Source: Pseudooceanicola nanhaiensis (GTDB lineage Bacteria > Pseudomonadota > Alphaproteobacteria > Rhodobacterales > Rhodobacteraceae). From it: a stretch of 64,000 bases of DNA. The notes under the pieces were generated by a model. That model had not been told where the DNA came from, made no database searches, and worked only from the letters and a program-made list of their open reading frames with translations. Below, piece after piece: positions 6,303 through 26,707 of the stretch. Positions within the stretch are counted from its first letter, which is position 1; each line of letters opens with the position of its first letter. The stretch spans positions 1 to 64,000 of the forward strand of contig NZ_JAIUZP010000009.1 of the NCBI RefSeq assembly GCF_020171315.1, written 5' to 3'. The position numbers and the translations under genes were made by a program.

Positions 6303-6447
6303 ATTCTCCTCCGTTCCCGATACCACATGTTGCTGAAAGCGCAGGGCGGGTCAATTCAGCCTTTGGAATGGTCAGGATCACGGACGTTTCTGTCCGGCCG
6401 GCGCGGGGTCTCTTTCCATGCCCCAAGGGCCGCGCTATGTCGGGCGC

Positions 6448-7518
6448 ATGAGCAACGTGTCTGACCTCTATCGTGCCCGCGTCGCGCGGGGCGAGATCAA
6501 GCCCGACCCCGCGCAGGAAGCTGTCCTGCCGGAGTTCGACCGCATCGACAACGCCCTGAACCAGCCGGTGAAACGCGGCTTCTTCGGGCGCAAGAAGGCC
6601 CCCGACGCGCCCAAGGGGCTCTACCTCTGGGGCGGGGTCGGTCGCGGCAAGTCGATGCTGATGGACCTCTTCGTGGAAAGCCTTTCGGTGCCGGTGCGCC
6701 GGGTTCACTTCCACGCCTTCATGCAGGAGATCCACGCCGGCATGACCGCCGCGCGCGCCGCCAAGGTCGAGGACGCGCTGGCCCCCGTGGCCGAGAAGGT
6801 CGCCTCCGACCTGCGGGTGCTGGCCTTCGACGAGATGCAGATCACCGACATCACCGATGCGATGATCGTGGGCCGTCTCTTCGAGATGCTCTTCGAGCGC
6901 GGCATCGTCGTGGTGACCACCTCGAACCGCGTGCCCGACGATCTCTACAAGGACGGGCTGAACCGCCAGCTGTTCTTGCCCTTCATCGAAGAGATCAAGG
7001 CGCGCATGGTCGTGCATGAGCTGGTCAGCCCGCGCGACTACCGCCAGCACCGGCTGGCGGGCGGACAGGTCTACTTTGCCCCTGCCAATGCTGAGGCACG
7101 CGGGCAGGTGAACGCGATCTGGAACGATCTGACCGGTGGCGTCGCGGGCGAGCCCCTCGTGCTGACGGTGCAGAAGCGCCCGGTGGAGATCCCGCACTTC
7201 GCGAATGGCGTGGGCCGGGCCCGGTTCTACGATTTCTGCGGCAAGATGCTGGGCGCGGCGGATTACCTCGCCATTGCCGAGACCTGCAAGGTGCTGATCC
7301 TCGAAGACATTCCGCGCCTCGGCCGGTCGAACTTCAACGAGGCCAAGCGCTTCGTCACGCTGATCGACGCGCTCTACGAGGCCAAGGTGCGCTTCATCTG
7401 CTCCGCCGCGGACGAACCGGAATCGCTCTATATCGAGGGCGAGGGCGTCTTCGAGTTCGAGCGGACCGCCAGCCGCCTGCGGGAGATGCAGGACAAGGAC
7501 TGGGGCGCGGAAGAGTGA
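6448..7518 (+). CDS. zapE: Cell division protein ZapE (AFG1-like ATPase)
   Basis: A 356-residue AFG1/ZapE P-loop ATPase. The Walker A motif GGVGRGKS is at residues 62-69 and Walker B LAFDEM near 126-130; ITDITDAMIVGRLFE and TTSNRVPDDLYKDGLNR are typical family stretches. ZapE interacts with FtsZ and affects Z-ring stability in E. coli; mitochondrial homologues assist proteostasis. The start MSNVSDLYRARV fits homologues better than the ATG 30 bases upstream. A strong terminator-like hairpin follows. Its neighbour across the gap is folC on the other strand. Confidence 0.9.
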   Translation: MSNVSDLYRARVARGEIKPDPAQEAVLPEFDRIDNALNQPVKRGFFGRKKAPDAPKGLYLWGGVGRGKSMLMDLFVESLSVPVRRVHFHAFMQEIHAGMTAARAAKVEDALAPVAEKVASDLRVLAFDEMQITDITDAMIVGRLFEMLFERGIVVVTTSNRVPDDLYKDGLNRQLFLPFIEEIKARMVVHELVSPRDYRQHRLAGGQVYFAPANAEARGQVNAIWNDLTGGVAGEPLVLTVQKRPVEIPHFANGVGRARFYDFCGKMLGAADYLAIAETCKVLILEDIPRLGRSNFNEAKRFVTLIDALYEAKVRFICSAADEPESLYIEGEGVFEFERTASRLREMQDKDWGAEE

Positions 7519-7558
7519 CCTTGAGGGCCCCGGCGGGGCCGGACGCAGGACCTGGAAA

Positions 7559-7595
7559 CAAAATCGGGGACCGTTGACCGGTCCCCTTTATTTTG
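7559..7595. terminator. Bidirectional terminator after zapE and of the candidate small RNA
   Basis: A perfect 8-bp stem GGGGACCG (7566-7573)/CGGTCCCC (7579-7586) is flanked by CAAAAT on the left and ATTTTG on the right, so the stem is followed by a U-rich run on either strand. On the plus strand it ends zapE. On the minus strand it ends a transcript coming from about 7686. Confidence 0.8.
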
Positions 7596-7686
7596 TGCCC
7601 GTTCCGTACTTGCCCGCAACGTCTTCTCCAGTCTCCTGCCGGGCGCTGCCGTGCCGGGCGGGAGTTGCAGAAAAGACGAGATGCCT
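7560..7686 (-). ncRNA. Candidate small RNA, about 127 nt
   Basis: Read on the minus strand, an extended -10 (TGCTCTAAT, 7700-7692) would start a transcript near 7686. It would form one long imperfect hairpin: CGTCTT (near 7678) with AAGACG (near 7621), and CTCCCGCCCGGC with GCCCGGCAGGAG. It would end at the terminator at 7559-7595. No convincing reading frame with a Shine-Dalgarno is present. The gap lies between two convergent genes, so a promoter here must serve something other than zapE or folC. I do not recognise an Rfam-type family; 6S and SRP RNA signatures were looked for and not found. Confidence 0.42.
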
Positions 7687-7691
7687 GAGGT

Positions 7692-7745
7692 ATTAGAGCA
7701 ACATTAGGCGAATCACCGCGAATCGGTCAAGGCAGCGTGATTCGC
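7692..7745 (-). promoter_or_regulatory. Putative promoter with a 9-bp dyad
   Basis: A perfect inverted repeat GCGAATCAC (7708-7716)/GTGATTCGC (7737-7745) with a 20-base spacer brackets TTGACC (minus strand, 7730-7725) and lies just upstream of the extended -10 TGCTCTAAT (7700-7692). The dyad would cover about -22 to -59 of the candidate RNA, a normal place for a regulator. Both arms contain GANTC, so CcrM methylation could matter. Confidence 0.4.
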
Positions 7746-7832
7746 TTTCTGGGCATTTGCTCCGAATCGGACAAAGTTTTCACTTTGTGCGCGCAGAAGC
7801 GTGACCTCACGGGCACGGTTTCCTGAGGTGGT

Positions 7833-7847
7833 TTAAACCGGCTTTAA
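7833..7847. promoter_or_regulatory. CtrA-type site TTAA-N7-TTAA
   Basis: TTAA (7833-7836), seven bases, TTAA (7844-7847) is an exact full CtrA consensus. It overlaps the folC stop codon on the minus strand. Four GANTC sites lie at 7710, 7720, 7739 and 7764, and a hairpin ACAAAG-TTTTCA-CTTTGT at 7771-7788. CtrA binding is inferred only from the motif. Confidence 0.4.
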
Positions 7848-9130
7848 CCGTTCTCTCTCAGGATACGACCCGCGAGGTAGAGAGAGCCGCAAATCAGCAC
7901 CCGGGCGTCGGGGGTTTCGGCAGCGATCCGGGCAAGGGCCCCTGCCACGTCCACATCCGCGTGGGCGGTCATACCTACACTCCGGGCCACCTCGGCCGTG
8001 GTCTCGGCGGGCAGGGTCGCGGCCTCGCCGGGGATCGACACCGCGTCGAGAGAGACGGCATGGGGCGCAAGGGGGCGCAGGAAGCCTGCGATGTCCTTGG
8101 TGTTGAGCATCCCGCAGATCAGGTAGGTCGGTCGCGCGGGCAGGCTGGCCAGATGGGTGGCAAGCGCCTCGCCGGCGGCCGGGTTGTGCCCGCCGTCAAG
8201 CCAGAGCTCGATCCCCGGGGCGCTCTCCACCAGCGGGCCGCTGCGCAGGCGCTGCATCCGTGCGGGCCAGTAGGCCGTGGTCACCGCCGCCTCGCAGGCC
8301 GCCTCGTCGAAGCCGAGGTGGCGCAGGCCCGCAATGGCCATGCCCGCGTTGCCGATCTGGTGCGCGCCGGGCAGGTTCGGCAGCGGCAGGTCCAGCAGGC
8401 CGTTCTCGTCCTGATAGATCAGCCGTCCGCGTTCTTCCCAGGCCGTCCAGTGTTGGCCGTGCACGAGCAGCGGCGCGCCAAGACGCGCGGCGCGGGCCTC
8501 GATCACCTCCAGCACCTCGTCGGGCTGGGGGCCAACCACGCAGGGCACGCCCCGCTTGAGGATACCGGCCTTCTCGCCGCCGATCTCGGCCAGGGTCTCG
8601 CCGAGGAACTGCTGATGGTCGAGGGAGATCGGCGTGATCACCGTCAGGGCAGGGGCCTCGATCACGTTGGTGGCGTCGAGCCGCCCGCCAAGACCCACTT
8701 CCAGCAGGGTGTACTCCGCGGGCGTGCGGGCGAAGGCCAGCAGCGCGGCGCAGGTCGTGATCTCGAAATAGGTGATCGTTTCGCCGTCATTGGCGCGGTA
8801 GCACTCGTCCAGCAGCGCCGCCAGGGCCTCTTCGGTGATCAGCTCACCGGCCAGCCGGATACGCTCGTGGAACCGTGCGAGGTGCGGCGAGGTATAGGCG
8901 TGGACGCGCTTGCCCGCGCCCTCCAGCCCGGCGCGGAACATCGCCTGGGTCGAGCCCTTGCCGTTGGTCCCAGCAAGGTGGATCACCGGCGGCAGCTTGT
9001 CCTGCGGATCGTCGAGGGCATGCAGCAGACGCCAGACCCGGTCCAGCGTCAGGTCGATGATCTTGGGGTGCAGGGCCATCATCCGCTCGAGGATGACGTC
9101 CGACCCCTGCACAGACCCGGCGGATGTCAC
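7844..9130 (-). CDS. folC: Bifunctional folylpolyglutamate synthase/dihydrofolate synthase
   Basis: A 428-residue Mur-ligase-family enzyme that adds glutamate to dihydropteroate and to folates. The P-loop GTNGKGS is at residues 54-60; [28 protein letters not shown] and [14 protein letters not shown] are folate-ligase signatures; the C-terminal domain has [13 protein letters not shown]. The GTG start overlaps the accD stop by four bases (GTGA), so translation is probably coupled to accD. This accD-folC order is widespread in bacteria. Confidence 0.95.
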
Positions 9131-26603: not shown

Positions 26604-26707
26604 ATATGTCAACGTCACGTATTTGAGTTCCCGCGCATGTCCGGGTCATGACATGCAACCTCCCTGTTGGACTGAGCCCGGGCCCCTGTGCCCGGGTCTT
26701 TTTTTAT
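26604..26707 (+). ncRNA. Candidate small RNA or 3'-UTR RNA downstream of cenR
   Basis: A compact two-hairpin structure lies after cenR: stem GCATGTC (26635-26641)/GACATGC (26650-26656) with an 8-base loop, a single-stranded link AACCTCCCTGTTGG, then a strong terminator with a long T run. The CCTCCC in the link could pair with ribosome binding sites, as in anti-SD small RNAs of alphaproteobacteria. Possible promoter pieces (CTGACA 26575-26580, TTGAAC 26583-26588, TTATAT 26602-26607) are imperfect. It could instead be released from the cenR mRNA. Confidence 0.35.
26675..26707 (+). terminator. Strong terminator after cenR/candidate RNA
   Basis: The core stem CCCGGGC/GCCCGGG with loop CCCTGT-like sequence is followed by a run of T residues (TCTTTTTTTATT). 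Confidence 0.88.

Follow-up and report, generated by a model that had tools for sequence, protein, structure and literature searches.

Results

A predicted transcription unit between zapE and folC

In the window, by which we mean the whole 64,000-nt stretch of Pseudooceanicola nanhaiensis DNA that was analysed, zapE (6418-7518, plus strand; matching NCBIfam ZapE and Pfam AFG1_ATPase) and folC (7844-9130, minus strand; named so in an earlier note on this DNA, a name that its Pfam Mur ligase domains fit) converge on a gap of 325 nt, and the domain matches and coordinates bear out the convergent layout described in that note. The minus strand of the gap carries a candidate promoter, with a -35 element TTGACC (7725-7730) and a -10 element TAATGT (7701-7706) separated by 18 nt, followed by a predicted small RNA of about 136 nt (7559-7694) whose limits come from the conserved promoter and an intrinsic terminator. 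Two YGATTCG sites, 10 bp apart, lie between the -35 and -10 elements (7725-7719 and 7715-7709, minus strand), a third just 5' of the -35 element (7738-7744), and a fourth at 7763-7769. A perfect inverted repeat with 7-bp arms (7771-7788; ACAAAGT, 4 nt, ACTTTGT) lies between this array and folC.

Plain DNA similarity gave matches in 4 of 100 genomes and reached only one near relative (G005) at full length besides the window's own genome, so conservation was sought by synteny. We used 80 zapE loci from named genomes, these being the most similar to the window ZapE among the matches listed, together with 22 genomes of the genus, 21 of which have zapE; zapE-folC gaps were taken from 79 loci. Counts for the genus refer to 19 gaps, or to 20 with locus L011. 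Since the 10 RNAs from outside the genus were selected by eye for YGATTCG sites, only the genus counts are used as statistics.

The pattern TTGAC, 18 or 19 nt, TANNNT (17 or 18 nt between the hexamers) is present in 18 of the 19 genus gaps, compared with a mean of 0.03 and at most 1 in 100 rounds of shuffling; in the single exception the -10 element reads CATTGT. The -35 region reads TTGACYGATTCG in 17/20 genus promoters. A sigma70 scan of positions 6500-9000 found no site, because TAATGT is a weak -10 element, and the candidate promoter therefore rests on conservation rather than on score. The earlier note had instead placed an extended -10 element, TGCTCTAAT, at 7700-7692. That string is indeed there, but it falls on the start site and recurs in only 1 of the 19 genus gaps, against 18 for the conserved promoter, and we rejected it as a promoter element. 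With the conserved -35 and -10 elements in its place, the predicted start moves from 7686 to about 7694 and the length from about 127 to about 136 nt. Conservation of the two hexamers at fixed spacing points to a promoter that belongs to the small RNA itself.

Conserved ends and a variable middle

For the stretch 7686-7559 the predicted folding energy is -57.3 kcal/mol (z -4.42), and none of 200 shuffles was as low. The roughly 60-base imperfect hairpin reported earlier was recovered by folding as a 59-nt structure on the minus strand (7678-7620), its sequence being lineage-specific, and the perfect terminator as a stem-loop at 7586-7566 (minus strand) with an 8-bp perfect stem, seven pairs of which are GC. 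The unit thus has a terminator of its own. T-rich tails flank this stem on both strands, the one on the RNA's strand (minus) being imperfect in the window species, and the terminator could therefore also end zapE transcription.

Two short minus-strand motifs frame the hairpin: CAGGCA near the 5' end (7682-7687) and CGGGCA before the terminator (7596-7601). In an alignment of 21 genus RNAs (A2), the middle drifts fast while both motifs and the terminator stay constant; in the 5' motif AG is invariant and most other letters nearly so, and in the 3' motif the C and then GGCA are invariant. GGCA occurs 61 times in these 21 RNA bodies, whose sequences are related, whereas 200 mononucleotide shuffles gave a mean of 11.8 and never more than 23. 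Folding does not predict the motifs to be unpaired more often (0.51 and 0.42) than the rest of the RNA (0.47).

All eight terminator pairs are kept in 21/21 sequences, two of them with compensatory changes, and the covariation score exceeds that of all 500 shuffles; neither the number of compensated pairs (reached in 285/500 shuffles) nor that of further pair types (474/500) clearly beats the shuffles. For the hairpin, the covariation test covered one species group, using 7 of its 10 sequences (alignment A1; L091, L097 and L098 were excluded as too divergent). These seven other genus sequences share a hairpin in the corresponding position, and five of its pairs show compensatory changes. Its covariation score was reached by 0/500 shuffles; the number of compensated pairs (reached by 15/500) and that of further pair types (122/500) do not clearly beat the shuffles. 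The conservation of stem pairs on which the earlier note had staked its reading stood in part: in the near relative G005 the window hairpin is kept except for one mismatch and an additional G-U pair (sequences read by eye), but other species groups have different hairpins at this position.

The window RNA contains no ORF of at least 10 aa. ORFs of up to 39 codons are found in the RNAs of relatives, where they do not recur across species groups, and there is no conserved reading frame.

A covariance-model search in relatives, as the earlier note had proposed, was run with a model (R1) built from 21 sequences, the window RNA included. It matches the window at 7558-7694 (90.9 bits) and gives a full-length best match in 21/22 genus genomes, 20 of which had supplied model sequences; the remaining one, G004, had supplied none and scores 78 bits at full length. 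The sole genus genome lacking a full-length match is 66% complete. R1 also matches the opposite strand of the window at the palindromic terminator (20.4 bits).

Rfam, run on the whole window at gathering thresholds, found only SorX, which lies elsewhere. Three matches in the gap at a relaxed threshold were far below gathering and none was accepted, and 20 related loci gave no match, so that the gap shows membership in no Rfam family (6S, SorX or others). The earlier note had not recognised the family, in agreement with this result. Among the papers listed, titles and the opening parts of abstracts contained no report of a zapE-folC small RNA, and term look-ups in the main texts of PMC4809877 and PMC5107571 gave neither folC nor zapE. 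As a separate observation, the SorX small RNA (RF02784) is at 26628-26703 on the plus strand of the window, scoring 70.2 bits where the gathering score is 46.6.

A phased array of GcrA/CcrM-type sites

YGAKTCG occurs 12 times in the 64-kb window, and four of these occurrences are crowded into 61 bp (7709-7769) inside the zapE-folC gap. This four-site cluster had been overlooked in the earlier note. Genus gaps contain 4.6 such sites on average, compared with 0.27 in shuffles. Two GANTC sites lie between the -35 and -10 elements in 18/20 genus promoters, 10 bp apart in 16/20, and a GANTC is found no more than 30 nt upstream of the -35 element in 20/20.

Passages in PMC7987155 propose YGAKTCG as an extended form of the CcrM site (GANTC) at promoters activated by GcrA together with sigma70 in Caulobacter, and report the extended motif without preference in Brevundimonas subvibrioides. 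GcrA is described as boosting open-complex formation at methylated promoters (in parts of PMC7403470), and GcrA orthologs of other alphaproteobacteria as binding in a methylation-dependent manner (in parts of PMC3667746). The zapE-folC promoter appears to be of this type, with YGAKTCG inside a putative sigma70-type promoter. The GcrA family was found in 15/15 genus genomes searched and in 21/25 overall. The window's own genome encodes GcrA (PF07750, E 5.3e-47) and a 366-aa methylase with a RAMA domain, CcrM-like by that domain and by eye.

Not every member of the family shows the array. G004 (locus L257; G004:C44, 561-707, minus strand) retains the RNA, but the 99 nt that separate it from the contig end upstream contain no YGAKTCG and, by eye, no TTGAC at the expected spacing; this speaks against the array being strictly required. 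In the two Puniceibacterium promoters, GANTC is missing between the -35 and -10 elements.

The pattern TTGACYGATTCGN{2,12}TANNNT has a single match in the window's own genome (4.8 Mb) and 0 in the control, and its N{2,14} form occurs in 16/22 genus genomes (control, 0/22). A looser pattern gave one other, weak match in the same genome, compared with 3 control matches. With no second clear promoter there, no regulon of this promoter form backs the GcrA/CcrM reading.

Distribution outside the genus

Among the 80 named loci, which are the best among the matches listed, only 14 have the promoter and the sites within 600 nt of zapE: four in Pseudooceanicola and ten in Shimia, Pseudopelagicola, Cognatishimia, Thalassovita litoralis, Puniceibacterium and one uncultured organism. 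Four Marivita loci have, by eye, a diverged version. The remaining named loci, including those of Ruegeria, Leisingera, Phaeobacter and Sulfitobacter, did not show promoter and sites together near zapE; at one Sulfitobacter locus there is a promoter-like match that lacks the sites. R1 reaches Thalassovita litoralis (L009, 2.5e-6), matches L120/L215 beside folC (3.9e-7) and gives a weak match in G111 (1.1e-3), where the unit, with its promoter, faces zapE and folC is on another contig. At E 0.1, R1 has matches in 31/98 non-genus genomes, many of them at the terminator end of the model only. A match at G024:C1:517035 (8.6e-5) was judged to be chance, with no YGAKTCG upstream, as were those in G109 and G053, which lack such a promoter.

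A rhodanese-like gene at the same promoter site

A search of 292 genomes with the promoter pattern gave matches in 36 (reversed control, 12). Thirty loci were retrieved; 24 have folC, and outside the genus 9/15 do. From the 146 genomes with a folC match we examined 100 regions downstream of folC, those with the best folC scores, the window's own genome apart; one region was only 126 nt long. A loose form of the promoter pattern is present in 23 of the 100, a count made with no chance control, so that some may be chance. Other genera have a similar promoter beside folC that is followed by a protein gene at the distance expected for a messenger, which argues that the promoter works. The next gene is rhodanese-like in several of these regions: L200 and L157 match PF00581, and L141, L150, L159, L177 and L193 are rhodanese-like by eye. 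By their N-termini, these proteins are probably secreted. Leaders of the rhodanese-like messengers contain CUGCC in 10/14 cases, nine of them about 24-33 nt in (positions partly by eye). It should be added that at L200, L141, L112, L146, L177, L216, L274, L276 and others a rhodanese-like gene beside or near folC has a GATTCG-type promoter, often with CUGCC in the leader.

A 163-aa piece of the rhodanese-like protein had no match in the window's own genome at E 0.001, and matches with 40-44% identity were found in only 2/22 genus genomes. L274, L216 and L151/L110 seem, by eye, to have an RNA-like unit and, after it, a rhodanese gene under a promoter of its own, so that both can be present at one locus. 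Predicted pairing between the RNA and the rhodanese leader, in the three genomes with both, was matched by 25-60% of shuffles; for the gcrA leader, 5% or fewer of the shuffled leaders were as low in only 2 of 13 genomes. Neither leader thus paired consistently better than its shuffled versions.

Discussion

The gap between zapE and folC very probably contains a real small RNA gene, to judge by its conservation. Its own promoter and terminator, the lack of an ORF and the matches in 21/22 genus genomes support the earlier note's reading of an independent non-coding gene. As read from sequence, it is an undescribed small RNA family of a known kind, whose unusual features would be the phased methylation-site array and an apparent change of product between genera.

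The motif, the architecture of the promoter and the gene content together make a good case that GcrA and CcrM control this promoter, and we regard such control as likely. We can outline how the unit might work. A sigma70-type promoter (TTGACC, 18 nt, TAATGT) with the phased YGATTCG array would start a non-coding RNA of about 136 nt, which would end at its own terminator. CcrM would methylate the GATTC cores, and GcrA on sigma70 polymerase would read the methylated sites. Because GcrA would be reading CcrM-methylated sites, RNA output is proposed to track the methylation state of the locus and, through it, replication and the cell cycle. Once made, the RNA would act in trans, probably using its repeated GGCA motifs (5' CAGGCA and 3' CGGGCA) for base pairing. 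That it is a base-pairing regulator seems to us about an even chance, and pairing through GGCA is a guess. Taken as a whole, the reading of a methylation-gated, cell-cycle-timed regulatory RNA is one that we favour with some reserve.

The best conserved part of the locus is the site cluster, whereas the RNA bodies differ greatly between species groups, and this could mean that the selected element is DNA. The cluster would then be a site that senses a protein or methylation, the hairpin a terminator shared by zapE and folC, as its T-rich tails on both strands would allow, and the transcript a by-product; at some other loci, moreover, the cluster precedes a protein gene. We consider this unlikely, because the -35/-10 spacing is kept in 18/19 genus gaps, the motifs at both ends recur, as do full-length matches to R1, also in G004 with no cluster seen, and hairpin pairs are compensated in one species group. 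The rhodanese-like genes raise another explanation, in which the promoter once drove such a gene, since lost, and now leaves a short transcript as an orphan. The like promoters ahead of rhodanese-like genes beside folC in other genera fit such a relic, as do the few matches of the 163-aa piece in the genus and the lack of one at E 0.001 in the window's own genome. Nevertheless, full-length matches in 21/22 genus genomes and compensated pairs point to selection, and at L274, L216 and L151/L110 an RNA-like unit seems, by eye, to lie upstream of the rhodanese gene's own promoter; a relic is therefore rather improbable. Still less probable is an origin from the folC messenger, as a 3' untranslated region set free from it: the RNA does lie downstream of folC on the same strand, but a full promoter is conserved, it is about 0.7 kb (G027) and 1.5 kb (G190) from folC in two genomes, and in G111 the unit faces zapE with folC on another contig. 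A short protein-coding gene, which the ORFs of up to 39 codons in some relatives might suggest, was rejected and has next to no likelihood, given the lack of an ORF in the window RNA and of any that recurs across species groups.

Returning to the regulatory RNA, its closest parallels are GcrA/CcrM-dependent promoters of Caulobacter such as ctrA P1, described in parts of PMC8959179, with which it shares sigma70-type -35/-10 elements with YGAKTCG (GANTC) sites and a genome that encodes GcrA and a CcrM-like methylase. It differs from them in having a small RNA as product and a phased site array, and methylation and GcrA binding are predicted here. Like CcnA of Caulobacter, it would be a non-coding RNA of an alphaproteobacterium with a link to the cell-cycle circuit. 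CcnA is located at the replication origin, with CtrA as its proposed driver (in parts of PMC8959179); the zapE-folC RNA has GcrA/CcrM-type sites and lies between folC and zapE. EcpR1 of Sinorhizobium meliloti is described as a small RNA that acts in trans and takes part in regulating the cell cycle (in parts of PMC4414408); the likeness is one of description, the sequence comparison being that no Rfam family matches here. SorX, a small RNA in the same window, has no match to the gap.

If the promoter works as read, the GcrA/CcrM methylation switch would govern a small RNA in marine Rhodobacteraceae, a combination that none of the studies listed for this family describes. Since the array is compact and, by the two patterns tested, the only clear one of its form in its genome, it is a candidate reporter for methylation-timed transcription, and the RNA, if the reading is true, would offer a way to probe a post-transcriptional arm of the GcrA/CcrM circuit.

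A broader and more speculative scheme, which we think unlikely, would join these loci. Beside folC, a GcrA/CcrM-type array promoter would drive a rhodanese-like protein in some Rhodobacteraceae, the small RNA in others, and in a few the two together; GGCA would recognise CUGCC in the leader of that messenger, or other messengers where the protein is gone, and passage of the replication fork would give a timed pulse of RNA. Finally, small LysM-like genes (by eye) are found near folC or zapE at L043, L256 and L232, and at L043 and L256 the sequence following that gene closes with GGCA and a terminator, in a manner similar to the 3' end of the RNAs.
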